NCBI GenBank assembly: GCA_022432975.1
Contig: CM039509.1
Coordinates: 10,320,621-10,384,620 of the forward strand
Reading direction: 5' to 3'
Length of the DNA: 64,000 nt
Source of the DNA: Begonia masoniana
Lineage: Eukaryota > Streptophyta > Magnoliopsida > Cucurbitales > Begoniaceae
Below the pieces are notes generated by a model. The model was not told the origin of the DNA and ran no database searches. It saw only the letters and a list, made by a program, of their open reading frames with translations. Position numbers and translations under genes: made by a program. This document shows positions 18,476 through 59,254 of this stretch, one piece after another (positions within the stretch are counted from its first letter, which is position 1; each line of letters starts with the position of its first letter).

Positions 18476-18992
<517 letters not shown>

Positions 18993-19661
18993 CTGTGGTG
19001 TAGGTGACGACAGGAGTACGGGTTAGCGCTACAAGGAAAGCTAGGATTGGGACGCAGTCGTTGATTTACGGAGCATGCCGGTGCAAGCAGTTGTCGGGGC
19101 GCCTCTACTTGGTCTTCGGGAGAATGTGGGGTTTTGTATTTTAGTAGTATTGTAAATGTCTGTTTGTGGAATTGATGGGAATGCGTAAGTATTATTTTGG
19201 TTGATGTTTTTGACAATTATGAGATAGCTATGTGTATTTGTTGTATATAGTCCTAGGTCAGGGTGATGTGTTACCCTATATTGGGGATTTTCTTTATTTT
19301 GTATGTTGATAGCATTTCTTGACGATATGTGGATTGTTAGAGATTTTGTAGGTTTGTTAGATTGTTAGGAATATTCTGGTTGGTTGGGATTTTTTTGTGT
19401 GCAGGTACATAGCATTTTGGAGGCGCCATTTTCAGGCGTTACTTTGCTGAAATTTTCGGGAAAGACGCCGTGGTGCTGAAAGGTTAGGGGTAAGGGAATT
19501 GATGAGTCTAGGCAGCTAGGTATGAAGTAAGAGAGTTTCGGGAGTTTAGTTGTAAATTCAGCTGTGTAAGTTTCTTTTATGTTTGGGAGTTTATGTTTTA
19601 ACGTGGGAATGGTTAGCAAAGTAGCGCTACGAGCCAAGGTGGGTTCGGGGGCGTTACAAGA

Positions 19662-19672
19662 TGGTATCAGAG
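19662..19672 (+). promoter_or_regulatory. Primer binding site, element C
   Basis: TGGTATCAGAG, 11 of 12 bases of the usual site (last base A instead of C), three bases after the 5' LTR. Confidence 0.9.
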
Positions 19673-26000: not shown

Positions 26001-29000
26001 CATAGCTCTTCTGTCTGCTCTGAGCTATCTCTATACGCCGTCGGATGATGGCAATCTTATCTGCCGTTTGCTGTAGAATCTCAGGACCAACGATGCTGGC
26101 CTCGCCAACCTCGTCCCAATATAACGGAGACCTACATTTCCGACCATACAGCGCCTCGTACGGTGCCATGCCGATGGTAGCCTGGAAGCTGTTGTTGTAC
26201 GAGAACTCAACCAGGGGTAAATATCGGCTCCACGAGCCCTGAAACTCTAGCACACATGCTCTGAGCATATCCTCAAGAATCTGATTAGTCCTCTCTGTCT
26301 GTCCATCAGTCTGAGGATGAAATGCCGTGCTGAAATTTAGCTGAGTCCCCATAGCTTTATGCAGGCTCTTCCAGAACTTCGATGTAAATCTCGGATCACG
26401 ATCTGAGACTATGGAAACTGGCACACTGTGCAGTCTGACAATCTCCTGCACATATAGCTCTGCGAGCTGATCCATCAAAGAGGCCATCCTCACAGATAAG
26501 AAGTGGGCCTGTAATATCCGGTTTGTACGGACCTTTGATTATATATTATGTTATATTATCATTTCCTTATTTAATGGCATTTTTGGTAAATATGTCAAAT
26601 CAGGTCCGATTCACAAAAAGAAAGCGTCATTACGATTCTAACGAATAATAAGAATTTTAAGGAAATTATGGGAATTTTCGGAGATCAAACACTACATTCC
26701 GAGTAAATACACTTTTCGTAATGTAAAAGACGTTCTCGTAAAAATAGCGAACGAGGTCCAAATTGCGAATGGACAGTTTTAATAAATCCCTGGCAATGAA
26801 TAGAAGTTATTGGCAAAATATGGAACTTTCGAGAATCTGAATAGTTGGACGATTAACGAAACGAAGGATGAAACAAATAGATTTAAGTAAGAAGGGCAAA
26901 ATGGTAATTTGCAAATCCATTTTAATAAATAACACAAAATCACTCTTTTTCCCTCACTTTGCTCTCTCTTCTCTCTTTTCTCTCTGGAACGCACGAACAG
27001 AGAAGGTTTCTTCTCTCGGCCGCCGGCGTTCTCACGTCGTTCCGACTTCGTTCGAACTCCGTTTCTCCTCCGTCCTTCACGGTTTCTTCTCCTCTCGCAA
27101 CCCTCGGTATGTAGCCCCAATCTCTGAGCGTTTATTTCGAGTTTTCGGTTCGATTTAGGGTTAGGGTTTCAATTAGGGTTTCGACGAAAAACACGAATTA
27201 GGGTTCGTAATTAATAGGTTAGCCTTGATTAAGTATATATCGAACGTATTGGACGTTATTGGACGAAGATAAACCAATTTGTAAAAAAGTATAAATTATA
27301 GAATTTTCGGGTTTTCGGAAATAACTCGTAATATGGATTTCCAGAATTATCGAGCGTTGTGTCGTTGTTTAAAAGCTTCGATTTGTTAAATTAAGGATTT
27401 TATTAGTTTGGACATTTAATCGTTTAAATTGGGTTTAACGACAAATATCGTGTTTTACCTCAGACACGCGACTCCAGTGGACGAAGCTTGAGATCCAGCG
27501 CACTCAAGGTAAGTTCTCGTGACTTGCTTGACCGAAAGGTCTACACCATACTTCGTCGTCGTATCAAGGATCCTTGAGGGTTCCTTGTTTTACGTTGTTT
27601 AGGTTGGGTAGTTAGGTTAATTGTTTATAGGTTATGTTATATTGTCTGCTGATATGAACTGTTTGTTTACTTTCCGCTGATATGAACTGTTCATGCATCA
27701 CGGTTTTCGAAAGTCATGAAAAGGAATTTCTGCACGTGTTTTTAAGAAAAGGAACGTATATCTGAAATGAAATCTGTAACGAAATCTGAATGAATAAACG
27801 TAATCTGTCTGTTTCTGGTCACGTGGGATGGGGCTCAGGCACGGCTGTGCGTGTTGCAACCGTGTACCCCCCCTCTCTAGGTGGAAAGGGTAGTCCGACC
27901 GCTGGATGGGCCCTCTCCGCTTAGTGGGTAGAGGTTTCGGTGACAATTCTGTCTGTCTGTGACGTAATGAATCTGTAATCTGTAATTCTGTATCTGTAAT
28001 CTGAATCTAAGCATGATTTCTGAATGGCATACGCACGCATGCATCTGCATTTACGTAGCTTACTGAGATTTCAATATCTCATATGTGTCTGTATGGTGTA
28101 GATGATCTGCTAGGTGACGTAGATCCAGGTGAGGACGACGTTCCTCCTCCTGATGTCGGAGGCAGTTGATGGATGATGCTCGTGGGAGTGCGCTGAGTAG
28201 TCGGGGCGCGATACGACCCGTGGGGATGTATGTCTGGACTCTAGGTTTATTTTGGGATGTCTGAATTGATAATTGTATAGAATATTTAGGTTGTTTGGAT
28301 CTGGATAGGGATTAGATAACGTTTTGGTAATTGTATGTAAAACGTTTTGGTTTAAACTTTTTACCGAATATTTTGGAAATATTTTGATTGGTTTTAGGTT
28401 GATACGGTTATGCTCGATGTTTAGATATATCCACGCAGTTGGACTTCGTAAAGTCCGTTGCGAGTCGATTGAGTTTAGGTATAAGTGTTGTGATAATGAA
28501 TGAAAACGAGAGGTAAAATGAGAAAGTGGTTAATGAATGGTGAGGTTATTCCTCTCTGGAATCGGATTCCAGAGAGTGAAGTAGAAGTATTTGCTCTCTG
28601 GAAATTCCAGAGAGCTAAGTGTTCATGGTCGGCTACTGGCGACTGGGCGCCGTGGGGGATCGCTGCATGGCGACTGGGCGCCGTGCTGGTCGCTGCAGGC
28701 AGCAACAGATCGCTGCATTATGCAGCGATCAGGCGCTGCATAATGCAGCGATCGTGCGCTGCATTATGCAGCGCACTCGGCGACCGAGCGCTGCATATAG
28801 CAGCGCCCGGTCGCTGCATCTTTTCGAGGGCAGAGTTCCAATTCTGCCCTCCCTCTTTTCTGATCTGTTTTAATGTTTTTAATTAATGTTTTTAAGTTTT
28901 TTTTAATTGTTTTATAGTTTGTTTTAAATGCTTTTAAGGTTCAAATTTAATTCCGATTTTAGTTCTGTTTTCAACTTCAGTTTTTATTCCGCACAAAGTT

Positions 29001-32000
29001 TTATTTAAAGCATAGAAAAGTAAAAAGTAAAAATGAAAAATTTATTACGGAAATACGGGTACGGAATTAAGGGTGTTACAGGGCCGACTTTGTCAATCGG
29101 TCCACAATAACCCATATGCCGTCATGGCCCTTCGTCGTCCTCGGGAGCCCCACAATAAAGTCCATGGAGATCTTCTCCCACTTCCACTCCGGAATCGGCA
29201 GTGGTAACAATGTTCCAGCGGGTCTCTGGTGCTCAGCTTTCACCTGTTGACAAACCAAACAGGTCTCAACGTACTTGGCCACCTCTCTCTTCATGTTCAG
29301 GCCACCAGAAATGTTGCTTTAAATCTCGGTACATCTTAGTACTTCCCGGGTGCACAGAATATGCCGAAGAATGTGCCTCAGCCAATATATCCTTCTTCAG
29401 ATCCTCGTCATTAGGCACGTACCACCTATGCCTGAATCGTAGAATACCATCATCTGATAAATGGAAATCCGACGAGTCTCCCAATGTCATGCTGGATCGA
29501 AGCTCCTCACACTCCGTATCGTTCTGCTGAGCCTCACGTATCCGATCCAGAATAGTCGGCCTAAGAGAAATGTTAGTGAGCATGCTGGACAACTCTGCCA
29601 CTATCTCCACATCGAATCTCTCAATCTTAGATCGCAGCGTAACTGACATCGCTGCAAGAGAAGGCTGACTCGCAGAAGACACTCTACTCAAGGCATCAGC
29701 AACCTTGTTCGCCTTTCCTGGATGGTACTTGATATCAAAATCAAAGTCTTTGACAAACTCAAGCCATCGTCTCTGTCGCATATTCAGCTCCTTCTGCGTA
29801 AATAAGTACTTCAAGCTCTTGTGGTCAGAAAATACCTCGCACTGCTGCCCATATAAATAATGCCTCCATATCTTCAGTGCGAAGACCACAGCTACTAACT
29901 CAAGGTCATGCGTAGGGTAATTATGCTCGTACGGCTTCAACTGCCGAGAAGCATAAGAAATAACTCTCCCCTCCTGCATCAATACACAACCGAGTCCCAC
30001 TCCAGACGCATCACAGTAAATACTGAATCTGACACCTTCAACAGGTAGCGCCAGTATTGGAGCGGTGGTCAATCTCTGCTTTAGCTCCATAAAACTATCA
30101 TCACAAGCAGACGACCAAATAAATCTCTCGTTCTTCCGAGTCAATCGAGAGAGAGGAAGTGCGATCTTTGAGAATCCCTCTATAAACTTCCGATAATAAC
30201 CTGGCCAACCCGAGAAATCCACGCACCTCACGTACGTTCTTCGGCTGTGGCCAATCTCTGACCACCTGAATCTTGCTCGGATCCACAGAAACTCCGTCCT
30301 GTGATATAATATGGCCAAGGAAGCTCACTCTGTCAAGCCAGAACTCACACTTAGAAAACTTTGGATACAGCTGGTGCTGACATAGGGTCCTCGGAACAAT
30401 CCTCAGATGTTCCTCGTGTTCTTCCTTCGTCTTAGAGTAGATCAATATGTCGTCGATGAAAACCACCACGAACTTGTCCAGATACTCCTTGAAGACACGG
30501 TTCATTAGATCCATAAACGCTGCAGGGGCATTAGTAAGTCCAAAAGACATGACAAGGAACTCATAATGCCCATACCTCGTTCGGAAAGCCGTCTTCGGTA
30601 CATCATCCATCCGGACTTTCAACTGATTGTAACCGGAGCGTAGATCAATCCTCGAAAATACTCGGGCACCTTGCAGCTGATCAAACAAATCGTCAATCCG
30701 CGGCAGTGGATGCTTATTCTTCACTGTGAGCTTATTCAGCTCCCTGTAATCAATGCACATCCTGAGGGTCCCGTCTTTCTTCTTGACAAACAGAACGGGT
30801 ACCCCAAGGCGATACACTGGGTCGAATAAATCCCTTCTCTAACAATTCGTCAAGCTGAGTCCTCAACTCTCTCAACTCAGCTAGTGCCAACCGATACGGG
30901 TTCTTAAACCTCGGCGCGGAGTTTGGATAGACATCGATAGTGAATTCGATCTCCCGGTCTGGTGGTAACCCGGGAAGATCATCAAGAAATATCCCAGAGA
31001 ACTCTCTGACGATAGGAATGTCGCTCGGCTTCAATCCGCTGAGCAATTGACAATCAAATACAGAGGCCCAATAGATAGAGCACGCACCTTTAAACTGCTC
31101 GTTGACCATCATGGAATAAGAAATAGGCGAGCTACTCAATCTGCTCATCGCCTGATAAGAAAACTCAGCTTTACCCGGGGAAAGGTGACAATCCCGGATC
31201 GACAGTCGATGGTGGCGAAGTGCTGCGATAGCCAATCCATCCCTAAAATAAGATCATAATGCTCGATGCCCACAACAATAAGGTGAGCATAGAGAGTACG
31301 GTCCCCAATTGAGATAATGTTGCCCAGGACTACACGGCTTGACTGCATACGCTCTCCTGAAGGTAGCATCACACTATACTCGCATTCTGCTAACTCGGGT
31401 GCAAGCCTCAATCTCGATACACAAGCGGTGGAAATAAAAGAATGCGTAGCCCCCGTGTCTAATAAAGAAAATACAGGAACACCAGTAACCAATATAGTAC
31501 CTGCTATCACGGCAGGCTGATCCTCGTTATCAACATCACCAGGCTCGATACAAGCGAAGATCCTGGGCATAACTCTCCTCTGATCACCGCCTATCTGGTC
31601 TCAACCCTGCTTCGGGCAGTCTCTAACAAAATGGCCTGCATCACAACATCGGTAGCATACATTCATGCCCACCCTGCACTGGCCACTGTGCTCCCTCTGG
31701 CATTTAGGACAAATAGGTACCTGAGAAGCACCCTGTACCTGCTTCCCCTTTCCCCGGTCATTACCTCCCTCAAGAGGCCTCTTCACACCCCTCTGCTGCT
31801 GCTGGGGCTGTGCTCTCGGCTGCCAACCTCGGCTCAGTGACTGAGGTCGGATCTCTCGGAAGAAGCCCTTAGATGGCTCCTTCGGTCTAGTAGAACTCTG
31901 TTCAACTGCCTCAATATCGAGGGCTCTGGCTACTATCTCGTCGTAAGATACATTACGTACCCCAGATATCGTAAGGTGCATCCGGAACTCCTGGCCAAGT

Positions 32001-35000
32001 CCCTGTAAAAACCGACGCACCTTGTCCTCGTTGACACTGACCTGCCGTGGTGCAAATTGAGACAAAGGAATGAAAATGAATCTGTATCTGTTTCTGTATC
32101 TGAAAGGAATGAAAATGAATCTGTAATCTGAATCTGTATCTGAAAGGAATGAAAATGTATCTAAATATGAATCTGTAATCTACACGTTTTATGAATGGCA
32201 TACGCACGCATGCATCTGCATTTACGTAGCTTACTGAGATTTCAATATCTCATATGTGTCTGTATGGTGTAGGTGACGTTCTAGGTTACGTTGACCCAGG
32301 TGAGAATGATATTCCTCCTCCTGATGTAGGAGCAGCTGATGGATGATGCTCGTGGGAGTGCGCTGAGTAGTCGAGGCGCGATATGACCCGTGGGGATGTA
32401 TGTATGGACTCTGGGGTTATTTTGGGATGTTTTGATCTGATAATTGTATAGAATATTTAGGTTGTTTGGATCTGGATAGGGGTTAGATAACGTTTTGGTA
32501 ATTGTATGTAAAACGCTTTGGTATAAACAGTTTTGATAAACGTTATGAAATGTTTTGGTTTAGAACCGTTATTTAAACGTTATAGAAATTCTGGAACTGT
32601 TTGGTTGTTTAAATTAAGTGTTATGAATTGTTTGTGGGTTGTTACGGATAGCTCGGTTTTTAGAGCTATCCACGCAGTCGGATTTCGCAAAGCCTGACTC
32701 GAGTCGATTGAACTTAGAATACATTTTAGTTTAATTGATTTGATTTAGGTGGTAAATTATGGTAATTGTTGGCGTGAAGAAGTGTAAGTTTTGCTCTCTG
32801 GAAATCGGATTCCAGAGAGCAAATCGTTGAAGTGTAAGCATGAAAGAATGGTGAAGTGCATTGAAGTGCTGGAGTGTTTGAAGGAGTGCAGCGATCGATT
32901 TCTGCTTTTCAGCAGAAATCGATCGCTGCATGCAAGCAAGCAGCAGCGATCGATTTCTGCTGATCGATTTCTGCTGAAAAGCAGAAATCGATCGCATGCA
33001 GCGATCGATCTCTGTATTTTACAGAGATCGATCGCTGCCTCCTTTTGGCAGCCCCATTTCCGATTCTGCCCCTCCTTTAGTTTTTATTAAATATTTAAAT
33101 GTTTTAAGTTTTATTTATTAATAGTTTTAGTTTATATTTGAAACGATTTACCAAACGAACTTCGATTTCGATTCCGGTTTCGGTTTCGATTTCAATTCCG
33201 CTTTAACGTTAGGTTTTAAAGTTTTATTTTAAAAATGTAAAATAGAAATGAAAAATTTATACGGGTAAATGGGTACGGTATTAGGGGTGTTACATTTATG
33301 GTATCAGAGCCCCCGGGTTTTAAAATCGATTCTGTAGACTGCTCGACTGCACAGCCACTACGCGGACATCCTTCATCAACTGTAAGTCATTTTATAGCTT
33401 TATTTGATTTTGTTTCTTAGGATTATCTGTTTAATTTGTTTTAGGCTTTATACATTATGACTCGAGGAAGGGATCCGAGAGATGACGCGCTAGATCGATT
33501 TACGAAATTTCTGGACCGTCAGGCCCAGCATATAGACCTACAAGCTCAACTTATAACTAGGCAATCTCATCAGATCGAGATATTGACAAACTGGGAAAGC
33601 CCAAGGACCCAAGGAGTGGTCACTCCCAGTAATCGTGGTACGAAGAGGATGAGCAAGGAGGAAACTAAACAAAGACGACACAAGCGCGTACAAGGAACTT
33701 ATCGAAAGCCTCTGTGTCCCGAATTCCAGAAGAGGCACTACGGTGATTGTCTGACGCGTACCAATAGGTGTTATCGATGTGGGGAAGCTGGCCACTATGT
33801 CATGAATTGTCTGTTGTTAAACCGAAATCAACCAGGCAACGATCGAGGGATAGGCAAGCTGGTACAAGGGGCTTCTCGGTTACCTCTTTGCCCTAAATGC
33901 CAGAGGGAGCATAGAGGACAGTGCAGAGTAGGCACGAGTGTGTGCTATTGGTGTGGAGAACCAGGCCATTTTGTTAAAGACTGCCCGAATCAGGGTCGAG
34001 ATCAATCAGGCAGAGATCAAAGAAAAGTTGTACCGAGAGTCTTTGCATTCATCGAGCTTGACAGCGCCGACGATGGAGCCCAGCCTTCTACAATTACAGG
34101 TATTATTTTAATTACCTGTACAGTGATATGCATGTGATAGGTAAAGTAGTTAGATCCGATAGGTGAGTAAGAAGAATTACTAGGCGAGCCTCGAAGAGAA
34201 GATAGTAGGATACACATATAACAATGAACACCATACAGAAATATAATTATACATTAGTAAGATTAGTTCGATTTAATCAATGGAGTTGAGGACTCAGCTC
34301 GACGAATTGTTAGAGAAGGGTTTCATCCGACCTAGCGTATCACCCTGGGGTGCGCCCGTTCTGTTTGTTAAAAAGAAAGACGGGACCCTCAGGATGTGTA
34401 TCGACTACAGGGAGCTGAATAAGCTCACAGTGAAGAATAAGTATCCACTGCCCCGGATTGACGACTTATTTGATCAGCTACAGGGTGCCCGAGTATTTTC
34501 CAGGATCGATCTACGCTCGGGTTACAATCAGCTGAAGGTCCGGATGGATGATATACCGAAGACGGCGTTCCGAACGAGGTATGGGCATTATGAGTTCCTC
34601 GTTATGTCTTTTGGACTCACTAATGCTCCTGCAGCGTTTATGGACTTGATGAACCGTGTCTTCAGAGAGTATCTGGATAAGTTCGTTGTGGTGTTTATCG
34701 ACGACATCTTGGTTTACTTTAAGACGAAGGAAGAGCACGAGGACCATCTGAGGATAGTTCTGAGCACGTTATGTCAGCATCATCTATATCCGAAGTTTTC
34801 TAAGTGCGAGTTCTGGCTTGACAGAGTGAGTTTTCTGAGCCATATTATATCACAGGACGGAGTTTCTGTGGATCCGAGCAAGATTCAGGTGGTCAGAGAT
34901 TGGCCACAGCTGAAGAACGTACGTGAGGTGCGTGGATTTCTCGGATTGGCCGGTTATTATCGGAAGTTTATAGAGGGATTCTCGAAGATCGCACTTCCTC

Positions 35001-38000
35001 TTACGCGATTGACTCGGAAGAACGAGAAGTTTGTATGGTCGTCTGCTTGTGATGACAGCTTTATGGAGTTAAAGCAGAGATTGACCACTGCCCCAGTATT
35101 GGCGCTACCTGATGAAGGTGTCAGATACAGTGTTTATTGTGATGCATCGGGAGTGGGACTCGGTTGTGTATTGATGCAGGAGGGTAGAGTTATTTCTTAT
35201 GCTTCTCGGCAGTTGAAGCCGTACGAGCAGAATTACCCCACGCATGACCTCGAGTTAGCAGCTGTGGTTTTCGCACTGAAGATATGGAGGCATTATTTAT
35301 ATGGGCAGCAGTGCGAGATATTTTCCGACCACAAGAGCCTGAAGTACTTATTTACGCAGAAGGAGCTGAACATGCGGCGGAGACGATGGCTTGAGTTTGT
35401 CAAAGATTACGATTTCGACATCAAGTACCATCCAGGAAAGGCGAACAAAGTTGCTGATGCCTTGAGTAGAGTGCCTTCTGCGAGTCAGCCTTCATTAGCA
35501 GCGATGTTAGTTACGCTGCGGTCTGAGATTGAGAGATTCGACGTGGAGATAGTGGCAGAGTTGTCCAGCATGCTCACTAGTATCTCTCTCTCAGGCCGAC
35601 CATTCTAGATCGTATACGCGAGGCTCAACAGAATGATTCGGAGTGTATGGAGCTTCGATCTCGTATGACATTGGGAGACTCGTCGGATTTCCATTTATCG
35701 GAGGATGGTATTCTGAAGTTCAGGCATAGGTGGTACGTGCCTAGTGACGAGGATCTAAAGAAGGAGATATTGGCCGAGGCACATTCTTCGGCATATTCTG
35801 TGCACCCGGGGAGTACCAAGATGTACCGGGATTTGAGACAACACTTTTGGTGGCCGAACATGAAGAGGGAGGTTGCCAAGTATGTTGAGACCTGCCTAGT
35901 ATGTCAGCAGGTAAAGGCTGAGCACCAGAGACCCGCTGGGACACTGTTACCACTGCCAATTCCGGAGTGGAAGTGGGAGCAGATCTCCATGGATTTCATT
36001 GTGGGGCTCCCGAGGACTACGAGAGGCCATGACGGCATTTGGGTTATTGTGGACCGATTGACAAAGTCGGCTCACTTTTTGCCTGTGAAGATGGCGTCTT
36101 CTATGGATCAGCTCGCAGAGCTCTATGTACAGGAGATTGTGAAGTTACACGGAGTGCCGGTTTCTATTGTCTCAGATCGAGATCCGAGGTTTACATCGAA
36201 GTTCTGGAAGAGTTTGCATAGAGCTATGGGGACTCAGCTTAACTTCAGCACAGCGTTTCATCCTCAGACTTATGGTCAGACAGAGAGGACGAATCAGATT
36301 TTGGAGGATATGCTCAGAGCGTGTGTGCTTGAGTTTCAGGGATCGTGGAGCAGGTATTTGCCACTGATCGAGTTCTCGTACAACAACAGCTTCCAGGCTA
36401 CTATCGGTATGGCTCCGTATGAAGCCTTATATGGTCGAAAGTGCAGATCTCCGCTGTATTGGGATGAGGTTGGCGAGGCCAGCGTCGTTGGACCTGAGAT
36501 TCTGCAGCAGACGGCAGAGAAGATTGCCGTTATCCGACAGCGCATTGAAGTAGCTCAGAGCCGACAGAAGAGCTATGCTGACACGAGACGGAGAGAGCTA
36601 GAGTTCGAGGAAGGTGACGAGGTCTACCTTAAAGTTTCTCCGTTCAAAGGCGTTGCGAGATTTGGAAGGAGGGGTAAGTTAAACCCTCGATATGTGGGAC
36701 CCTTTCCTATTCTGAAGAGGATCGGGAAGTTGGCGTACAGATTGCAGCTTCCGGCTTCTATGGAGGGTATCCACGACGTATTTCACGTATCTATGCTTCG
36801 GAAGTGCTTGCGCGATCCGTCGCATATCGTAGAGACTACAGAGATCGAGGTGCAGCCTACCTTGAGCTATGAGGTGAGGTCAGTACGTATTTTGGAGCAT
36901 TCCATCAAGGTTCTACGCAACAAAGAAATTCCGCTAGTCAAAGTTCTATGACGGAATCACGAGGTGGAAGAGGCTACCTGGGAGCGACAGCAGGATATGA
37001 TGACTAAGTATCCTGATCTGTTTGTGTAATTTAATTTTGTGGACAAAATTCTGAATAAGGAGGGTAGAATGTAATATCCGGTTTGTACGGACCTTTGATT
37101 ATATTATTATTATATTATTAGTGGCATTTTTGGTAAATATATCAAATCAGGTCCGTTTCACAAAAAGAAAGCGTTATTACGATTCTAACGAATAATAAGA
37201 ATTTTAAGGAATTTACGGAAATTTTCGGAGATTAAACGCTATATTCCGAGTAAATACGTTTATCGTAATGTAAAGGACGTTTTAGTAAAAATAGTAAACG
37301 AGGTCCGAATTGCGAACGGACAGTTTTAATAAAGCCTTGGGGATGAATATGAGTTATTGGCAAAATATGAAATTTTCGAGAATCCGAATCGCAGGACGAT
37401 TAACGAAACGAAGGACGAAACGAATAGATTTAAGTAAGAAGGGCAAAATGGTAATTTGCAAAATAATTTCTATTAAAAACATCACAAACCCTCATTTCTC
37501 CCTCACTTTCTCTCTTTCTTTCTTTTTCTCTCTAGATCGCACGAACAGAGAAGGAGAAGCTTCTCTGGCCGCCGGCGTTCTCACGATGTCCGACCTCCGT
37601 TCTCCTCCGTTCCTCGTCATTTCTTCTCCTCTCGCAACCCTCGGTATGTAGCTTCGGTCTCTGAGCATTTATTTTGAGTTTCGGTCCGATTAGGGTTAGG
37701 GTTTTCAGTTAGGGTTTTGATAAAAATGTCGAATTAGGGCTCGTAATTAATAGGTTAGCCGTAATTAAGTATATGTTGAACATATTGGACGTTATTGGAC
37801 GAAGAAAAGTCAATTTGCGAAAAAGTTATAAATTGGTAAAATGTCGAGTTTTTAGAAAAAACTCGTAATTAGAGATTTCGGATTATAAAGCTTTAATTGA
37901 CGTTTGCAATACTCTAAATAGCTAAGTGGAGAATTTAGGAGAATTCGTTAGTTAAGGATTTTTGTAATTTGGACGTTTATAAGTTAAATTGGGTTTAACG

Positions 38001-41000
38001 ACAAATATCGTGGTTTACCTCAGACACGCGACTCCAGTGGATGAAGCTTGAGATCCAGCGCACTCAAGGTAAGTTCTCGTGACTTGCTTGACCGAAAGGT
38101 CTACACCATACTTCGTCGTCGTATCAAGGATCCTTGAGGGTTCCTTGTTTTACGTTGTTTAGGTTGGGTAGTTAGGTTAATTGTTTATAGGTTATGTTAT
38201 ATTGTCTGCTGATATGAACTGTTTGTTTACTTTCTGCCTGATATGAACTGTTCATTGCATCACGGTTTTCGAAAGTCATGAAAAGGAATTTCTGCACGTG
38301 TTTTTAAGAAAAGGAACGTATATCTGAAATGAAATCTGTAACGAAATCTGAATGAATAAACGTAATCTGTCTGTTTTCTGGTCACATGCGGGATGGGGCT
38401 CAGGCACGGCTGTGCGTGTTGCAAAGCGTGTACCCCCCCTCTCTAGGTGGAAAGGGTAGTCTGACCGCTGGATGGGCCCTCTCCGCTTAGTGGTAGAGTT
38501 TCGGTGACAATTCTGTCTGTCTGTGACTAATGAATCTGTAATCTGAATCTGAATCTGTAATCTGAATCTGTATCTGTTTCTGTATCTGAAAGGAATGAAA
38601 ATGAATCTGTAATCTGAATCTGTATCTGTTTCTGTATCTGAAAGGAATGAAAATGAATCTGTAATCTGAATCTGTATCTGTTTCTGTATCTGAAAGGAAT
38701 GAAAATGAATCTGTATCTGTTTCTGTATCTGAAAGGAATGAAAATGAATCTGTATCTGTTTCTGTATCTGAAAGGAATGAAAATGAATCTGTAATCTGAA
38801 TCTGTATCTGTTTCTGTATCTGAAAGGAATGAAAATGAATCTGTAATCTGAATCTGTATCTGTTTCTGTATCTGAAAGGAATGAAAATGAATCTGTAATC
38901 TGAATCTGTATCTGTTTCTGTATCTGAAAGGAATGAAAATGAATCTGTAATCTGAATCTGTATCTGTTTCTGTATCTGAAAGGAATGAAAATGAATCTGT
39001 AATCTGAATCTGTATCTGTTTCTGTATCTGAAAGGAATGAAAATGAATCTGTAATCTGAATCTGTATCTGTTTCTGTATCTGAAAGGAATGAAAATGAAT
39101 CTGTAATCTGAATCTGTATCTGTTTCTGTATCTGAAAGGAATGAAAATGAATCTGTAATCTGAATCTGTATCTGTTTCTGTATCTGAAAGGAATGAAAAT
39201 GAATCTGTAATCTGAATCTGTATCTGTTTCTGTATCTGAAAGGAATGAAAATGAATCTGTAATCTGAATCTGTATCTGTTTCTGTATCTGAAAGGAATGA
39301 AAATGAATCTGTAATCTGAATCTGTATCTGTTTCTGTATCTGAAAGGAATGAAAATGAATCTGTAATCTGAATCTGTATCTGTTTCTGTATCTGAAAGGA
39401 ATGAAAATGAATCTGTAATCTGAATCTGTATCTGTTTCTGTATCTGAAAGGAATGAAAATGAATCTGTAATCTGAATCTGTATCTGTTTCTGTATCTGAA
39501 AGGAATGAAAATGAATCTGTATCTGTTTCTGTATCTGAAAGGAATGAAAATGAATCTGTAATCTGAATCTGTATCTGTTTCTGTATCTGAAAGGAATGAA
39601 AATGAATCTGTAATCTGAATCTGTATCTGTTTCTGTATCTGAAAGGAATGAAAATGAATCTGTAATCTGAATCTGTATCTGTTTCTGTATCTGAAAGGAA
39701 TGAAAATGAATCTGTAATCTGAATCTGTATCTGTTTCTGTATCTGAAAGGAATGAAAATGAATCTGTAATCTGAATCTGTATCTGTTTCTGTATCTGAAA
39801 GGAATGAAAATGAATCTGTAATCTGAATCTGTATCTGTTTCTGTATCTGAAAGGAATGAAAATGAATCTGTAATCTGAATCTGTATCTGTTTCTGTATCT
39901 GAAAGGAATGAAAATGAATCTGTAATCTGAATCTGTATCTGTTTCTGTATCTGAAAGGAATGAAAATGAATCTGTAATCTGAATCTGTATCTGTTTCTGT
40001 ATCTGAAAGGAATGAAAATGAATCTGTAATCTGAATCTGTATCTGTTTCTGTATCTGAAAGGAATAAAAATGTATCTGAATATGAATCTGTATCTATTTC
40101 TGTATCTGAAAGGAATGAAAATGAATCTGTAATCTGAATCTGTATCTGTTTCTGTATCTGAAAGGAATGAAAAATGAATCTGTAATCTGAATCTGTATCT
40201 GTTTCTGTATCTGAAAGGAATGAAAAATGAATCAGTAATCTGAATCTGTATCTGTTTCTGTATCTGAAAGGAATGAAAATGTATCTGAATATGATCTGTA
40301 ATCTGCAACGTTTTATGAATGGCATACGCACGCATGCATCTGCATTTACGTAGCTTACTGAGATTTCAATATCTCATATGTGTCTGTATGGTGTAGGTGA
40401 CGTTCTAGGTTACGTTGACCCAAGTGAGAATGATATTCCTCCTCCTGATGTAGGAGCAGCTGATAGATGATGCTCGTGGAAGTGCGCTGAGTAGTCGAGG
40501 CGCGATATGACCCGTGGGGATGTATGTATGGACTCTGGGGTTATTTTGGGATGTTTTGATCTGATAATTGTATAGAATATTTAGGTTGTTTGGATCTGGA
40601 TAGGGGTTAGATAACGTTTTGGTAATTGTATGTAAAACGCTTTGGTATAAACAGTTTTGATAAACGTTATGAAATGTTTTGGTTTAGAACCGTTATTTAA
40701 ACGTTATAGAAATTCTGGAACTGTTTGGTTGTTTAAATTAAGTGTTATGAATTGTTTGTGGGTTGTTACGGATAGCTCGGTTTTTAGAGCTATCCACGCA
40801 GTCGGATTTCGCAAAGCCTGACTCGAGTCGATTGAACTTAGAATACGTTTTAGTTTAATTGATTTGATTTAGGTGGTAAATTATGGTAATTGTTGGCGTG
40901 AAGAAGTGTAAGTTTTGCTCTCTGGAAATCGGATTCCAGAGAGCAAATCGTTGAAGTGTAAGCATGAAAGAATGGTGAAGTGCGTTGAAGTGCTGGAGTG

Positions 41001-44000
41001 TTTGAAGGAGGATCGCTGCATAGCATGCAGCGATCGATTTCTGCTTTTCAGCAGAAATCGATCGCTTGCATGCAAGCAAGCAGCAGCGATCGATCTCTGT
41101 ATTTTACAGAGATCGATCGCTGCCTCCTTTTGGCAGCCCCATTTCCGATTCTGCCCCTCCTTTAGTTTTTATTAAATATTTAAATGTTTTAAGTTTTATT
41201 TATTAATAGTTTTAGTTTATATTTGAAACGATTTACCAAACGAACTTCGATTTTGATTCCGGTTTCGGTTTCGATTTCAATTCCGCTTTAACGTTAGGTT
41301 TTAAAGTTTTATTTTAAAAATGTAAAATAGAAATGAAAAATTTATACGGGTAAATGGGTACGGTATTAGGGGTGTTACAAGTCTACAGAACCGATTTTAA
41401 AACCCGGGGGCTTTGATACCATAACTGTCACATCCATAATACTGTACCCATATTTCCATACTATTTTTTTTAACCCAATAATTTCTTTAAATAAACTCTA
41501 AGCGGAACCTAAACCGAAATCGAAACCTGATTCGAAATCGGAACTAAATTCTAACTTTTAAAACAATTTAAATAAAACTTAAAACAATTTAATTAAAACT
41601 TAAATTAATTAAGTAAACTAATTAATAAATAAATAATTAAAGGAGGCGATTATTCGCCCATAAATGGGGCGAATAATCGCCCCAGCCTGTGGCGATTGCT
41701 CGCCACAGTTTGTGGCGAGCAATCGCCACTCCCTCTGGATTTCTCCAGAGGGAGGCGATTGATTCGCCTGGCTTGGCGATAACTCGCCAAGCCCACTGCC
41801 CTCTACTTCAATCCTTCGCTCCTTTCCTTCAATTTCACCGACATATAACTACAATTTCACAATACGACTCCCCAATCCAATAAAATCAAATAAAACTCGC
41901 TCTAATTCTCATTCTTTCCACACTTAATCATTCACCTAATAAACGACTCGAAATACATTTTAAAACTAAGAACATTTTCATAAAAACGAACTGCATGGGT
42001 ACGTTTAAAACCTAAACAAATCCTCTTGTTTCAAACCACGCAATTCCAAAATACATTCAATGAAAGACTTTTCCAAACCATTATAAAACAGTTTCAAAAA
42101 CATGAACCTATACATATATACCTATCAACTATCCAGAATCAAACAACCTAAAGTATTTCTATACAAACATCAGCCCAAAAAGTCCCAAACCCTCAAAATC
42201 TATACATACAGTCCCCACGGGTCAGGTAAGCCTCGATTGCGCCAGCACACCACCGTAGCCATCCTCCGTCAACTGGACTCAAGACTCTGGAGGAGGAATC
42301 CCATCCTCACCTGGTTCCTCGATATCTAGATCACCTACACCATACAATACACTATGAGATAAAAATCTCAGTAAGCTCTAGTAAATGTAACTATATGCTA
42401 TGCGTGTGAGTTCAGAAATCAAGCAGCATTTTCTTTACTTTACTCTGTGGGTGTCACCGAGATCTCAACCTCCTAACCAGAGAGAGCACATCCTGCGGTC
42501 GGACTACTCTTTCCAGCTAGAAGAGGGGGGTACACGCTTACAACACGTACAGCCGTGCCTGAGCCCCATCTCGCATAACCTGTAAACTGTATGCCTTTCG
42601 GCCTGTATGCCTTTCGGCCCATTTTAACTGTATGCCTTACGGCCCATTCTATTCTTTACTTTATCTTTAAAACATTTTGCAGAAATTCATTTTTCATGTT
42701 TTTCATTAAAACACGTGATGCATGAACAGTTCATAACAGAAGTTAAACACTCAGCATACATACCATCAAGACTGTAAAACAAAATCTATAAAACAATTAA
42801 ACCTAACTACCCAACCAAAACATTATAAACTAGTGCGTCACCAAACTCCTCGAAGCGACATTCGACGTACGGTGTAGGCCAATCGGCCAGAGAAGAATCA
42901 CGAGAACTTACCTCGTGTCCAAAGCAGCTCGAGCTCCGTCCACGAGCGTTGTTTGTCTGAGGTAAAACATAACGGTCGATGTTAAAACAATTTAAGCTTC
43001 TAAACGTCCTAATTAACAAAACCTTAACTAACGAATTTCTTAAAATGTCCAGCTTAACTGTTCGGAGCATATAAATGAACAATCTACGATTGATGCCTCG
43101 AAACTACAATTTACGAGCTTTTCCTAAAACCCGAAAATCCCTATTTTTTAACATTTTCACAAATTGCTATAACTTCGTCCAATAATCATCTAAATTCGTC
43201 CAATGCGTTCAATATATGCTTAATCACAGAAAACCTATTAATTTCGGACCCTAAATCGCGTTTTAAATCGAAACCCTAAACGCACCTAATTGTTTAAAAC
43301 TCCGAAATCATCGAAATAAAAGCTCTAAGATTGTAGTAGGTTCATACCTAGAACGTCGATTGGAGGCGAAAGCACGAAGAAAACGGAACGAACGGGAGAA
43401 AAAGGAGGTCGGATCGTTAGATTCCGTCGGCGGCCGAGAGGGTTCGCGAGAGAGAAAGAAAGAAACAGAGAGGAAATGGCGTTCTGGAGAAGAGAAAGAA
43501 AGGCTTTGCCTTTTAATAAAAAAAAATGATTTGTCAAAAGACCAAAATGCCCTTAGCTCTTATTTCTTTTTGTTTCGTCCTTCGTTTCGTTAATCGTCCA
43601 GCGATTCGACTTTTCCAAATTTCCATATTTTGCCAATAAGTCCAACTTATTATTTGGGACTTAATAAAAGTGTCCGTTTGCAATTTGGACCTCGTTTGCT
43701 ATTTTTTCCAAAACGTCCATTAAATTACGATAGAGGTAATTACTCGGAATATAGCGTTATTATTCCTAAAATTCCTATAATTTCCTAAAAATTCTTATCA
43801 TTCGTTAGGATCATAATGACGCATTTCTGAAAGTATGACAGTTCGGGAGGTGTTTGTGTGAGTCACCTCGTCGCGAATTAGTGTCTGAAAGTATGACAGT
43901 TCGGGAGGTGTTTGTGTGAGTCACCTCGTCGCGAATTAGTGTCTGAAAGTATGACAGTTCGGGAGGTGTTTGTGTGAGTCACCTCGTCGCGAATTAGTGT

Positions 44001-46450
44001 CTGAAAGTATGACAGTTCGGGAGGTGTTTGTGTGAGTCACCTCGTCGCGAATTAGTGTCTGAAAGTATGACAGTTCGGGAGGTGTTTGTGTGAGTCACCT
44101 CGTCGCGAATTAGTGTCTGAAAGTATGACAGTTCGGGAGGTGTTTGTGTGAGTCACCTCGTCGCGAATTAGTGTCTGAAAGTATGACAGTTCGGGAGGTG
44201 TTTGTGTGAGTCACCTCGTCGCGAATTAGTGTCTGAAAGTATGACAGTTCGGGAGGTGTTTGTGTGAGTCACCTCGTCGCGAATTAGTGTCTGAAAGTAT
44301 GACAGTTCGGGAGGTGTTTGTGTGAGTCACCTCGTCGCGAATTAGTGTCTGAAAGTATGACAGTTCGGGAGGTGTTTGTGTGAGTCACCTCGTCGCGAAT
44401 TAGTGTCTGAAAGTATGACAGTTCGGGAGGTGTTTGTGTGAGTCACCTCGTCGCGAATTAGTGTCTGAAAGTATGACAGTTCGGGAGGTGTTTGTGTGAG
44501 TCACCTCGTCGCGAATTAGTGTCTGAAAGTATGACAGTTCGGGAGGTGTTTGTGTGAGTCACCTCGTCGCGAATTAGTGTCTGAAAGTATGACAGTTCGG
44601 GAGGTGTTTGTGTGAGTCACCTCGTCGCGAATTAGTGTCTGAAAGTATGACAGTTCGGGAGGTGTTTGTGTGAGTCACCTCGTCGCGAATTAGTGTCTGA
44701 AAGTATGACAGTTCGGGAGGTGTTTGTGTGAGTCACCTCGTCGCGAATTAGTGTCTGAAAGTATGACAGTTCGGGAGGTGTTTGTGTGAGTCACCTCGTC
44801 GCGAATTAGTGTCTGAAAGTATGACAGTTCGGGAGGTGTTTGTGTGAGTCACCTCGTCGCGAATTAGTGTCTGAAAGTATGACAGTTCGGGAGGTGTTTG
44901 TGTGAGTCACCTCGTCGCGAATTAGTGTCTGAAAGTATGACAGTTCGGGAGGTGTTTGTGTGAGTCACCTCGTCGCGAATTAGTGTCTGAAAGTATGACA
45001 GTTCGGGAGGTGTTTGTGTGAGTCACCTCGTCGCGAATTAGTGTCTGAAAGTATGACAGTTCGGGAGGTGTTTGTGTGAGTCACCTCGTCGCGAATTAGT
45101 GTCTGAAAGTATGACAGTTCGGGAGGTGTTTGTGTGAGTCACCTCGTCGCGAATTAGTGTCTGAAAGTATGACAGTTCGGGAGGTGTTTGTGTGAGTCAC
45201 CTCGTCGCGAATTAGTGTCTGAAAGTATGACAGTTCGGGAGGTGTTTGTGTGAGTCACCTCGTCGCGAATTAGTGTCTGAAAGTATGACAGTTCGGGAGG
45301 TGTTTGTGTGAGTCACCTCGTCGCGAATTAGTGTCTGAAAGTATGACAGTTCGGGAGGTGTTTGTGTGAGTCACCTCGTCGCGAATTAGTGTCTGAAAGT
45401 ATGACAGTTCGGGAGGTGTTTGTGTGAGTCACCTCGTCGCGAATTAGTGTCTGAAAGTATGACAGTTCGGGAGGTGTTTGTGTGAGTCACCTCGTCGCGA
45501 ATTAGTGTCTGAAAGTATGACAGTTCGGGAGGTGTTTGTGTGAGTCACCTCGTCGCGAATTAGTGTCTGAAAGTATGACAGTTCGGGAGGTGTTTGTGTG
45601 AGTCACCTCGTCGCGAATTAGTGTCTGAAAGTATGACAGTTCGGGAGGTGTTTGTGTGAGTCACCTCGTCGCGAATTAGTGTCTGAAAGTATGACAGTTC
45701 GGGAGGTGTTTGTGTGAGTCACCTCGTCGCGAATTAGTGTCTGAAAGTATGACAGTTCGGGAGGTGTTTGTGTGAGTCACCTCGTCGCGAATTAGTGTCT
45801 GAAAGTATGACAGTTCGGGAGGTGTTTGTTTGTGTGAGTCACCTCATCGCGAATTAGTGTCTGAAAGTATGACAGTTCGGGAGGTGTTTGTGTGAGTCAC
45901 CTCGTCGCGAATTAGTGTCTGAAAGTATGACAGTTCGGGAGGTGTTTGTGTGTGTCACCTCGTCGCGAATTAGTGTCTGAAAGTATGACAGTTTGGGAGG
46001 TGTTTGTGTTAGTCACCTCGTCGCGAATTAGTGTCTAAAAGTATGACAGTTCGAGAGGTGTTTGTGTGAGTCACCTCGTCGCGAATTAGTGTCTGAAAGT
46101 ATGACAGTTCGGGAGGTGTTTGTGTGAGTCACCTCGTCGCGAATAGTGCCTGAAAGTATGGCAGTTCGGGAGGTTTCTACAATTGAGTCATGTTTGAAAT
46201 GTGTAAGAAAAGCACTAGAGAGTTAAATGCCTCGTCGTTAAAGTGCAAGACGCACTAGAGGGTTTAACGTCTCGTCGTTAACGTGCATGAGTAAGAAAAT
46301 AGCAGAGTGAGTATCATTGACATGTGTTAGGAAGCGGTGTGTGTATTGTGTTTGTTTACATTCGTGTTATTCATTACTTGCTAAGCTTAAAGCTTACGTG
46401 TGTGTGTGTGTGTGTTCTGTGGTGTAGGTGACGACAGGAGTACAGGTTAG
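21883..46450 (+). CDS. LTR small ORF, element C 3' copy (three exons)
   Basis: Exon 1 21883-21979 starts at ATG and ends GG|GTAAAT in phase 1. Exon 2 runs from 22580 (or 22592, a second in-frame acceptor) to 22633, ending CCAG|GTAAGT in phase 1. Exon 3 46428-46450 follows GTGTAG and ends TAG. The joined frame has no internal stop. Exon 1 is Pro/Arg-rich, exon 2 holds an [10 protein letters not shown] block related to exon 2 of the other families, and exon 3 is a short Gly-Asp tail. The second intron is now about 24 kb because H lies inside it, so this copy cannot be expected to splice normally. No known family recognised. Confidence 0.5.
23025..25508 (-). repeat. 3' LTR of element H
   Basis: TGTCACGTCC start and TTATTACA end. 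It includes hairpins with GGCGATTATTCGCC-like arms (about 23243-23385), three copies of a TGTATGCCTTTCGGCC unit (about 24187-24246, within the candidate second intron) and telo-box-like ACCCTAA at about 24885. Confidence 0.93.
23879..25080 (-). CDS. LTR small ORF, element H left copy
   Basis: Exon 3 23934-23879, exon 2 24556-24512 and exon 1 ending at 24945. Junctions are AG|GTATGA / CTCAG|AC and CGAG|GTAAGT / GTGTAG|GT. The blocks match the right copy (42279-43537). The upstream ATG of the right copy is out of frame here, because an A-run has eight instead of nine As, so only the downstream part stays open. Confidence 0.5.
25509..25521 (-). promoter_or_regulatory. Polypurine tract, element H
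   Basis: Minus strand AAGGAGGGTGGAA next to the 3' LTR. Confidence 0.88.
25549..26509 (-). CDS. Integrase core and chromodomain-like tail, element H (3' half intact)
   Basis: A 314-residue open frame from within the integrase core to the natural stop. It carries SDRDPRF, the [13 protein letters not shown] block with the catalytic Glu, the [21 protein letters not shown] block, the YVGPFPIL motif and the tail ending [21 protein letters not shown]. No stop or shift occurs, so this is among the best-kept integrase C-termini in the window. The N-terminal zinc domain and first catalytic Asp lie at 29081-29300, across the solo LTR. Confidence 0.92.
27000..28169 (+). CDS. LTR small ORF, solo LTR copy
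   Basis: Exon 1 ends at 27106 (CTCG|GTATGT), exon 2 27464-27508 (CTCAG|AC to CAAG|GTAAGT), exon 3 28102-28169 (GTGTAG|AT to TGA) with the [10 protein letters not shown] tail. The second intron is only 593 bp in this copy. The ATG used in the G copy is replaced by other bases and the upstream ATG frame is shifted relative to exon 2, so it may be inactive. Confidence 0.45.
28550..28830. repeat. Hairpin cluster in solo LTR
   Basis: CTCTCTGGAATC/GATTCCAGAGAG-type arms (28550-28618) are followed by several GATCGCTGCA/TGCAGCGATC palindromes. Confidence 0.85.
29081..31600 (-). pseudogene. Protease, RT, RNase H and integrase N-terminus, element H
   Basis: Domains in minus-strand order: protease ([11 protein letters not shown], about 31480), RT ([49 protein letters not shown]), RNase H ([31 protein letters not shown]), then the integrase zinc region ([18 protein letters not shown]) and the first catalytic Asp ([11 protein letters not shown]). 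Frameshifts lie near 31180, 30810, 30210 and 29297. A TGA near 31600 replaces the Arg codon CGA seen in G. Confidence 0.9.
31601..32066 (-). pseudogene. Gag C-terminal part, element H
   Basis: It keeps the end of the capsid domain ([20 protein letters not shown]), the Gln/Arg-rich linker and one CCHC knuckle ([14 protein letters not shown]). The first half of gag is missing: at 32064-32067 the frame jumps into the repeat of the G LTR across a shared aaag. Confidence 0.88.
32066..33294 (+). repeat. 5' LTR of element G, truncated
   Basis: Starts inside the 52-bp repeat (about two partial units, 32068-32170). It then has exon 3 of the LTR ORF (32273-32346, GTGTAG|GT, TGA), hairpins (32795-33040) and the GGGTGTTACA end. 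Confidence 0.92.
33299..33310 (+). promoter_or_regulatory. Primer binding site, element G
   Basis: TGGTATCAGAGC four bases after the 5' LTR. Confidence 0.95.
33382..33444 (+). other. Possible 63-bp leader intron, element G
   Basis: CT|GTAAGT donor and TTGTTTTAG acceptor 12 bp before the gag ATG. Removing it would put an ATG overlapping the primer site in frame with gag. Confidence 0.35.
33457..34137 (+). CDS. Short gag with two zinc-knuckle modules, element G
   Basis: An intact 226-residue frame. The N-terminus ([15 protein letters not shown]) and Gln-rich helix match F and B gag, but the capsid domain is missing. Instead the frame goes straight to two successive C-terminal modules, each a cysteine pair plus a CCHC knuckle: [14 protein letters not shown] and [14 protein letters not shown]. 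It ends a few residues after [11 protein letters not shown], the same breakpoint as F gag, before the protease. It might bind RNA but cannot form a normal capsid. An internal deletion plus module duplication, or recombination between two gags, would explain it. Confidence 0.82.
   Translation: MTRGRDPRDDALDRFTKFLDRQAQHIDLQAQLITRQSHQIEILTNWESPRTQGVVTPSNRGTKRMSKEETKQRRHKRVQGTYRKPLCPEFQKRHYGDCLTRTNRCYRCGEAGHYVMNCLLLNRNQPGNDRGIGKLVQGASRLPLCPKCQREHRGQCRVGTSVCYWCGEPGHFVKDCPNQGRDQSGRDQRKVVPRVFAFIELDSADDGAQPSTITGIILITCTVICM
34138..34279 (+). other. Non-coding filler between gag and RT in element G
   Basis: It replaces the protease and the gag-pol linker. It contains the 15-mer CGATAGGTGAGTAAG, also found near the 3' end of the internal region of C (21460-21474). 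Confidence 0.6.
34280..37029 (+). pseudogene. RT, RNase H and integrase, element G (nearly intact)
   Basis: It opens with ATG at 34280, just before the RT. Blocks in order: VDYRELN equivalent [29 protein letters not shown], RNase H with [13 protein letters not shown] and [18 protein letters not shown], the integrase zinc region CLVCQQ, catalytic MDFIVG, SDRDPRF and QTERTNQ, then YVGPFPIL and the chromodomain-like tail ending at 37029. Only two lesions break it: an extra TC near 35600 and Trp to TGA at 36949-36951. The missing protease means it could not have processed a polyprotein alone. Confidence 0.92.
37056..37069 (+). promoter_or_regulatory. Polypurine tract, element G
   Basis: AATAAGGAGGGTAGAA-type purine run directly before the 3' LTR, after TGGACAAAATTCTG. 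Confidence 0.88.
37586..40470 (+). CDS. LTR small ORF, element G copy (three exons)
   Basis: Exon 1 37586-37643 from ATG to CTCG|GTATGT (the frame is open further upstream, with more ATGs from 37310). Exon 2 38024-38068 (CTCAG|AC to CAAG|GTAAGT). Exon 3 40397-40470 (GTGTAG|GT to TGA). All junctions are phase 1, and the joined frame of 58 codons plus stop has no interruption. The product would be small: a hydrophobic Pro/Ser-rich N-part, a basic-acidic middle with [10 protein letters not shown], and an acidic, proline-rich tail with NDIPPPDV. I know no family like it. Synonymous differences from F, H, D and B support coding. Its place upstream of gag in the transcript suggests a leader-encoded peptide or a separate spliced mRNA. 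Confidence 0.55.
38522..40290 (+). repeat. 52-bp minisatellite array in G LTR, about 33 copies
   Basis: Unit of 52 bp built from CTGTAATCTGAATCTGTATC and GAAAGGAATGAAAATG parts, with a few 39-bp short units and divergent units at the right end (40060-40290). All three minus frames stay open for more than 600 codons because 52 is not a multiple of three and the unit has no stop there; these frames are artefacts. It lies wholly inside the second candidate LTR intron (38069-40396). Confidence 0.96.
41410..41421 (-). promoter_or_regulatory. Primer binding site, element H
   Basis: Minus strand TGGTATCAAAGC, one change from the usual site, four bases from the H 5' LTR. Confidence 0.88.
41426..43822 (-). 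repeat. 5' LTR of element H, outer end missing
   Basis: Matches 23025-25508 closely but stops after ATGACGC. The next bases belong to the 58-bp array of C. About 115 bp of LTR end are gone. Confidence 0.92.
42279..43537 (-). CDS. LTR small ORF, element H right copy (three exons)
   Basis: Exon 1 43537-43348 (190 nt, ATG start, ends CTAG|GTATGA). Exon 2 42956-42912 (45 nt, CTCAG|AC to CGAG|GTAAGT). Exon 3 42334-42279 (56 nt, GTGTAG|GT to TGA). Phases are 1 and 1, giving a 96-codon frame without stops. Exon 1 starts hydrophobic (Leu/Phe-rich, possibly a membrane or signal-like stretch) and then carries [18 protein letters not shown]. Exon 2 has [12 protein letters not shown], and exon 3 ends [10 protein letters not shown]. 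This is the most complete copy in the window. Function unknown. Confidence 0.55.
43826..46172 (+). repeat. 58-bp minisatellite array, about 40 copies
   Basis: Same unit and orientation as 16860-18258. Near-perfect identity for about 34 copies, then variant units from about 45830 to 46170, again at the right end. Confidence 0.97.
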
Positions 46451-59176: not shown

Positions 59177-59189
59177 ATTTATAAGACTC

Positions 59190-59254
59190 CTATAAAATTT
59201 AAAAACAAGTAATCCTAAGAAACTGAAATCAAACAAAGCAGTAAACAGACTTAC
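59190..59254 (-). other. Possible 65-bp leader intron, element F
   Basis: CT|GTAAGT donor and TTTTATAG|G acceptor before the gag ATG, same layout as in B. Confidence 0.4.

Follow-up and report, generated by a model that had tools for sequence, protein, structure and literature searches.

We analyzed a 64-kb stretch of plant-like DNA from Begonia masoniana (contig CM039509.1; hereafter, the window), which is filled with nested long terminal repeat (LTR) elements of the Ty3/gypsy type, as delineated by Pfam domains and by comparison of the window with itself. Within the LTRs lie three short segments bounded by splice signals, which had originally been predicted to encode a conserved, spliced small protein with both junctions in phase 1. 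Our analysis suggests that these segments are probably the exons of a multi-intron spliced 5′ leader of gag-pol.

Elements and families of the window

The elements encode reverse transcriptase, RNase H, integrase and gag domains, with Pfam matches to RVT_1, Integrase_H2C2, Retrotrans_gag and Ty3_capsid, and a match to rve below its cut-off. The primer binding site (PBS), TGGTATCAGAGC, is present at 5 places in the window, and this sequence has been linked to the initiator Met tRNA (PMC2829016). No Pfam match to a chromodomain was found in the parts scanned. Gag, reverse transcriptase and integrase of the Ty3/gypsy type combined with an initiator-Met PBS are as in the Tekay/Del chromoviruses, and these elements may belong to Tekay.

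All comparisons involve about ten families in this single window, designated here A to J, with letters that in some cases may differ from those of the original prediction. Exon-bearing copies are F (a solo LTR), G5 (exon 3 only), G3, I5, I3, H3, D5, D3, B5, B3, C5 and C3, where the numbers denote the 5′ and 3′ LTRs, with partial copies in A, E and J. Most of the analysis relies on the nine-copy set of six families, namely, F, G3, I5, I3, H3, D5, D3, B5 and B3. Among the two-LTR elements, self-comparison showed ~98% identity between the LTRs of I and of D and ~92-93% for B and G, so that I and D are the youngest of the comparable elements; the C pair is ~92-93% identical over the first 1.5 kb and 96.8% in another C stretch, and H and F each have one LTR in the window.

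Three short exons in the LTRs

The three-exon anatomy within the LTRs, as read from the sequence, is real and conserved. In all nine copies of the six families, a promoter-proximal exon 1, an exon 2 and an exon 3 are present in the predicted phase. Exon 1 ends with CTCG or CTAG, followed by GTATG or GTAAG, exon 2 is 45 nucleotides (nt) long except in B5 (46 nt), and exon 3 is preceded by GTGTAG, with TTGTAG in B5 and GTGTAT in B3. The junctions of G lie exactly where they had been placed (37643|37644, 38024-38068 and 40397, with the frame ending at 40470), and equivalent exons were found in F, I (both LTRs), H, D (both LTRs), B (both LTRs) and C. The exon 3 relics claimed for A and E were recovered as well, together with a further one in J (63394-63408). 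Exceptions among the splice signals, which had been described as good, are the acceptor of exon 2 in H3 (CAA) and that of exon 3 in B3 (TAT). The exons are as follows:

37468-37480, forward strand: TATA-like box of the G 3′ LTR promoter, picked by eye, with a putative start ~30 nt downstream
37503-37643, forward strand: exon 1 of G, start estimated at 35 nt after the start of the box, ending CTCG|GTATGT
37586, forward strand: in-frame ATG of G exon 1
38024-38068, forward strand: exon 2 of G, 45 nt, CAG|ACACG...CAAG|GTAAGT
40397-40470, forward strand: exon 3 of G to the stop, as originally predicted
40397-40423, forward strand: exon 3 of G up to the donor, which is CAA|GTGAG in this copy (G3)
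32267, forward strand: start of GTGTAG before exon 3 in the G 5′ LTR, donor CAG|GTGAG
27464-27508, forward strand: exon 2 of F (exon 1 ends at 27106)
28102-28128, forward strand: exon 3 of F up to CAG|GTGAG
61515-61559, reverse strand: exon 2 of I5 (exon 1 ends at 61916)
60218-60244, reverse strand: exon 3 of I5 up to CAG|GTGAG
55555-55599, reverse strand: exon 2 of I3 (exon 1 ends at 55956; exon 3 at 54265-54291)
48145-48189, reverse strand: exon 2 of H, acceptor CAA (exon 1 ends at 48571)
47587-47601, reverse strand: exon 3 of H up to CAG|GTGAG
42912-42956, reverse strand: exon 2 of D5 (exon 1 ends at 43348)
42311-42334, reverse strand: exon 3 of D5 up to CAG|GTGAG
24512-24556, reverse strand: exon 2 of D3 (exon 1 ends at 24945; exon 3 at 23911-23934)
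14425-14470, reverse strand: exon 2 of B5, 46 nt, frame broken (exon 1 ends at 14849)
14230-14244, reverse strand: exon 3 of B5, donor CAG|GTGTG
6960-7004, reverse strand: exon 2 of B3 (exon 1 ends at 7382)
6765-6779, reverse strand: exon 3 of B3, acceptor TAT
21883-21979, forward strand: exon 1 of C3, from an in-frame ATG to CGG|GTAAAT
22580-22633, forward strand: exon 2 of C3, 54 nt
46428-46445, forward strand: exon 3 of C3, beyond the nested D element, followed by CAG|GTTAG and a stop
52377-52391, reverse strand: exon 3 relic of E
3589-3606, reverse strand: exon 3 relic of A (exon 2-like end at 4500)
63394-63408, forward strand: exon 3 relic of J (exon 2-like end at 62874)

Shared ancestry of the LTRs might by itself make the exons alike, with the splice-like and codon-like features being coincidental. 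Across the six families, mean identity is 0.67 for the last 45 nt of exon 1, 0.72 for exon 2 and 0.70 for exon 3, close to the 0.75 in U3, as such kinship would have it; by the same measure, the ends of intron 1 reach 0.61-0.66, the initial 60 nt of intron 2 reach 0.76 and the 27 nt after the CAG of exon 3 reach 0.80. Nevertheless, acceptor 3 and the donor that follows it are retained in A, C, E and J, although the self-comparison lists no match of at least 200 nt between the exon 3 regions of these families and those of the six, and the window contains the composite pattern GTGTAG-GTGAY-N3..30-CAGGTGAG 6 times, compared to 0 in 100 shuffles. We therefore regard ancestry alone as a very improbable explanation.

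Splice signals, composition and promoter

Exons 2 and 3 combined contain 52-56% GC and 15-21% U in all six families, whereas intron 1 and the initial 200 nt of intron 2 contain 31-40% GC and 36-44% U, also in all six; exon 1 is 51-56% GC and 33-36% U. A contrast of a similar kind between exon and intron composition has been described for the BARE1 intron (PMC3735527). When the GT sites of the leader (to gag in I5 and B5, to the LTR end in D5) were ranked with an approximate donor matrix, donor 2 came first in all three elements scored, the exon 3 donor, CAG|GTGAG (CAG|GTGTG in B5), ranked 5 of 244, 7 of 135 and 3 of 152 in I5, B5 and D5, respectively, and the exon 1 donor ranked 12, 3 and 4. 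All nine copies have a TATA-like box, picked by eye, in front of exon 1, which can accordingly be read as the beginning of the transcript.

Given the conserved donors and acceptors and the GC-rich, U-poor exons 2 and 3 set in U-rich introns 1 and 2, splicing within the LTR is well supported at the sequence level. A promoter-proximal first exon and conserved splice sites accompanied by a contrast in composition, with H3 and B3 as exceptions and with a weaker contrast after donor 3, are the features that a spliced leader would have.

A splice donor within exon 3

The original prediction included a conserved “GE” motif in exon 3. The letters of this motif spell a splice donor, CAG|GTGAG, and its third codon positions are frozen. 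The two codons are GGTGAG in all nine family rows and are preceded by CAG in eight. Codon 9 is CCA, GCA, ACA, TCA or GAA, with a variable first base and a fixed third base, and the third bases of codons 9-11 are A, T and G in all nine rows. A codon with a variable first and a fixed third base fits the donor and is the opposite of what codon constraint produces. The exact CAGGTGAG is present in 10 of the 15 exon 3 copies, and the other five carry variants that differ by one or two bases, namely, CAAGTGAG in G3, CAGGTGTG in B5, CGGGTTAG in C5, CAGGTTAG in C3 and AAGGTGAG in J.

The donor might be covered by a hairpin, the other arm of which is the CCTCC.CC stretch that had been read as the peptide PPP(D/E). 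The 9-nt donor is predicted to be mostly paired in F, I, G5, H and B, with an unpaired probability of 0.01-0.18, and less so in D (0.36); 30 other NAG|GTR sites average 0.60. The letters that differ in H and B5 re-pair in another register (CACC with GGUG, and CGCCUG with CAGGUG, respectively). However, the same donor is predicted to be open in E (0.71) and A (0.75) and intermediate (0.34-0.50) in C, G3 and J, and the shuffle z-scores of 11 pieces, of which those of B were shorter than the full hairpin, range from -2.0 (F and I) to 0.13 (D). With z-scores this modest, the fold is suggestive only. Such a hairpin would provide a non-protein reason for the conservation of PPP(D/E), without an obvious reason for every third-position change, and the constraints of donor and hairpin together can account for the conserved GE and PPP without a protein.

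A probable spliced leader of gag-pol

Under the leader interpretation, transcription would start just 3′ of the TATA-like box of the LTR, and the 5′ leader (R and U5) would hold three exons with two introns between them: exon 1, exon 2 of ~45 nt and exon 3, a micro-exon of 15-27 nt that ends with CAG|GTGAG. Exons 1-3 would then be joined to the acceptor before gag, either directly or via a post-PBS exon. Splicing would strip dozens of upstream AUGs, rendering gag translatable, and the packaged genomic RNA would remain unspliced. The predicted hairpin could hide the exon 3 donor.

A conserved intron between the PBS and gag, ACT|GTAAGT...AG before the gag ATG, was identified by pattern in four elements and by reading in C:

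33299-33457; 59176-59337; 13146-13306; 2551-2708: PBS-to-gag introns found by pattern
near 19660-19820: PBS-to-gag intron of C, found by reading
59255, reverse strand: last exon base before the post-PBS intron donor ACT|GTAAGT of I
59177-59189, reverse strand: exon bases of I from the acceptor TTTTATAG to the gag ATG, which starts at 59176

With leader starts that are estimates, the unspliced I5 leader is 2888 nt long and contains 62 upstream ATGs; without introns 1 and 2 and the post-PBS intron, it is 1197 nt long with 25 ATGs, and with the exon 3 CAG joined to the gag acceptor, it shrinks to 234 nt with 0 ATGs. For B5, the respective ATG counts are 37, 21 and 1. The joined exons themselves are ATG-free in I5, H3, D5 and B3; F keeps one ATG and G3 keeps two.

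LTRs are copied from RNA during retroelement replication. The persistence of the introns in these LTRs would thus imply that the packaged RNA is unspliced there. A junction between exon 3 and gag would also remove the PBS, so that such an RNA could serve only as mRNA.

Two other ways of connecting the LTR frame with coding regions were rejected. Fusion of the LTR frame to gag does not work because the offset between the acceptor and the gag ATG, counted manually, is out of phase in G, I and B, although it is in phase in A. Fusion of the end of pol into the 3′ LTR was dropped on reading; the donor-like GGTAAG of G pol is GGCAAG in H.

Open frame, start codon and codon pattern

The alternative is the conserved small protein originally put forward. 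Encoded by the three spliced LTR exons, it would comprise ~50-60 residues and be made from a short LTR-terminated transcript, translation beginning at an AUG in G and C but at a non-AUG codon elsewhere. The claim of an open phase-1 frame is borne out in 8 of the 9 copies of the six families and also in C3, where the frame runs from an ATG and ends GDDRSTG, and thus lacks the GED..PPP part said to be shared. It fails in B5, where a 1-nt insertion in exon 2 breaks the joined frame, and exon 1 of C5 is 1 nt longer than that of C3. When each family is represented by a single copy (B3 in the case of B), the phase-1 frame is the only one open through all the exons in 6 of 6 families, each of the other two frames containing at least one stop; because the families share ancestry, these are not six independent cases.

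Insertions and deletions likewise seem to favor a protein, with one internal gap block (3 nt) in 144 exon columns compared to 44 in 975 flanking columns, but this count is generous to the exons: it omits gaps at the ends of the alignment, hiding the 9-12 nt differences in exon 3 length, exon 1 was trimmed to equal length, and B3 represented its family instead of B5 with its frame-breaking insertion.

There is no conserved start codon. The start ATG that had been reported is in frame in G3 and, outside the nine-copy set, in C3, but exon 1 contains no ATG in 7 of the 9 copies, among them the two LTRs of I and the two of D, which are the youngest two-LTR elements, and the ATG of B5 is out of frame. 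Codon-like substitution also does not extend to all exons, contrary to the claim that codons differ mostly at third positions. Counting extra states at codon positions 1/2/3, with a permutation P value for position 3, we obtained 14/8/11 (P 0.58) for exon 1 and 8/9/12 (P 0.18) for exon 2; only the last part of exon 3 shows the claimed pattern.

This last part of exon 3 is one of several features that weigh against the leader. In the 30 nt from GGT GAG onward, the extra states are 3/3/13 (P 0.0012; 0.0044 for any position), and codons 12-18 yield 2/2/11 with B3 (P 0.001) and 2/1/10 with B5 (P 0.003); none of the 388 overlapping control windows is as skewed as codons 12-18, although this stretch was chosen after viewing the alignment. 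The third-position pattern after the donor is left unexplained by a noncoding leader. Furthermore, exon 3 up to its CAG-like donor is 27, 24, 18 or 15 nt long, a multiple of three in 15 of the 15 copies, as had been predicted, albeit with few independent changes behind this regularity. The 200 nt 3′ of the exon 3 CAG contain 31-34% U and 41-48% GC, a composition less like an intron than that of introns 1 and 2, which argues against constant use of the donor, and other acceptors could take the place of that before gag, the donor-3-to-gag junction being only a presumed one. Upstream AUGs are not avoided beyond what composition dictates: the exons of six copies contain 3 ATGs compared to 3.4 expected from dinucleotide content. 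Depletion of ATG was accordingly rejected as a proof of the leader since dinucleotide shuffles account for the scarcity. The open or intermediate donors and the modest z-scores described above belong here as well.

Taken together, the spliced leader with a donor at the end of exon 3 explains more than the protein claim, which is possible but has the weaker case. In favor of a protein are the single open frame, the third-position excess from GGT GAG onward, the scarcity of gaps, the exon 3 lengths and an exon 2 identity above that of intron 1, along with a precedent in the spliced accessory protein of Cer1 from C. elegans (PMC12786077). Against it stand the missing start codons, the lack of a significant codon pattern in exons 1 and 2, which are no more alike than U3, the explanation of GE and PPP by donor and hairpin constraints, and the absence of homologues described below. 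We consider the small protein unlikely, though by no means negligible. The codon-like variation after the donor and the exon 3 lengths are real and prevent an outright rejection of a peptide.

Both interpretations might hold at once, if the exons form a spliced leader and a form with the exon 3 donor unused ends within the LTR, yielding a short peptide or a regulatory upstream open reading frame (ORF). This would unite the donor evidence with the codon-like stretch and with the composition 3′ of the donor, intermediate between exon and intron, but the start codon problem persists, and we deem this combination improbable. That either the small protein or this combination is correct is a tentative but appreciable possibility. 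Rather doubtful, in our view, is the most elaborate version, a three-exon accessory peptide encoded in the LTR and translated from a non-AUG start (AUG in some families), in which a hairpin-masked donor would switch between the peptide, gag mRNA and packaged genomic RNA.

Searches for related sequences

A protein search with the joined peptide of G detected no homologue, and among the 166 candidates returned for an alignment of seven joined peptides, none reached E≤1. There was no match in Pfam for three joined peptides, and none in Rfam over the window at gathering scores. Relatives of one part of pol were sought in viral_contigs and genome_contigs, and none was confirmed. The exon 3 DNA pattern occurs in 11 stretches of viral_contigs, which we take as chance matches, and the PBS-intron DNA pattern has none there.

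Relation to known systems

Among the matches listed in the open-licence PubMed Central (PMC) literature, no description of LTR introns or LTR-encoded ORFs in this arrangement was found. In foamy viruses, the LTR harbors the major splice donor, which precedes the poly(A) signal, and RNA structure is thought to hide this donor at the 3′ end (PMC3694450). The elements described here likewise have a donor within the LTR and a structure, in this case only predicted, that could hide it; unlike foamy viruses, they are plant elements of the Ty3/gypsy type whose LTR has a third donor in addition to its two introns. In BARE, also a plant LTR element, the translated, spliced and packaged RNAs are kept separate, similar to the distinction between spliced translated and packaged RNAs proposed here; in contrast to introns in the LTR leader, the BARE1 splice lies in the coding region and produces a Gag-only RNA by frameshift (PMC3735527).

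A 2025 review describes introns as generally absent from plant LTR elements and singles out Ogre and EVADE as notable exceptions (PMC12786077). The introns of these two plant elements are functional (PMC12786077; for Ogre, also PMC6317226), but, unlike those discussed here, they are described as removing or joining coding parts (PMC12786077; PMC6317226). In sunflower, Tyran and Varan elements are spliced, and members of Tekay are absent from the expressed set (PMC7730604). There, alternative splicing of plant LTR element RNAs was detected by nanopore direct RNA sequencing, and the isoforms named, in contrast to the leader proposed here, carry short Gag or other ORFs (PMC7730604). Additional conserved ORFs beside gag-pol are known in plant LTR retrotransposons, but these are described not from the LTR but from the internal region, where most of them lie between pol and the 3′ LTR (PMC7264820).

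If the leader is spliced as proposed, introns in the LTR leader would show how kilobase-long, AUG-rich leaders permit the translation of gag and yet keep an unspliced genome, and would provide a plant parallel to foamy viruses. It would also call for caution with small ORFs annotated in LTRs, since such an ORF can be a set of leader exons. The Sag protein of mouse mammary tumor virus and the lentiviral Nef are partly or wholly encoded in LTRs, as long ORFs with an AUG, in contrast to the three tiny leader exons described here.

Other conserved features, repeats and insertions

Two further hairpins lie near the two ends of intron 2. The one just 3′ of donor 2, ~20 nt from the donor, is GACC(GAAA)GGTC in G, GACC..GGTC in I and GGCC..GGCC in H, D and B, with a UUCG loop in A and C, and is followed by TACACC in 7 of the 10 aligned rows. 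Its covariation is weak, with a single pair showing double changes, in 2 of the 10 sequences. It is a candidate for a signal confined to unspliced RNA. The second, before acceptor 3, reads TGAGAT..ATCTCA, TGAGC..GCTCA or TAAGC..GCTTA. Under the leader interpretation, these hairpins could set the balance between spliced and unspliced RNA or act in one LTR only. In G, intron 2 contains the following:

38090-38101, forward strand: hairpin GACC(GAAA)GGTC just 3′ of donor 2, from the alignment and pair counts
38550-40305, forward strand: tandem array of a 52-bp repeat, 34 copies
40359-40376, forward strand: hairpin TGAGAT..ATCTCA before acceptor 3

Element I has related arrays with other unit lengths. 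A block 3′ of the exon 3 stop (40480-40530 and equivalents), GTGGGAGTGCGCT..AGTCG..TGACCCGTGGGGA, is similar across the six families and lies outside the open frame. The two C LTRs are unequal in a 58-bp tandem array, with 24 copies in one and 40 in the other (16870-18257 and 43826-46174, respectively), and one of them contains a (GT)257 run at 18478-18991, the matching place in the other LTR being much shorter. The solo LTR F (26510-29080) is inserted within pol of element D and is flanked by a 5-bp target duplication, GGGCC.

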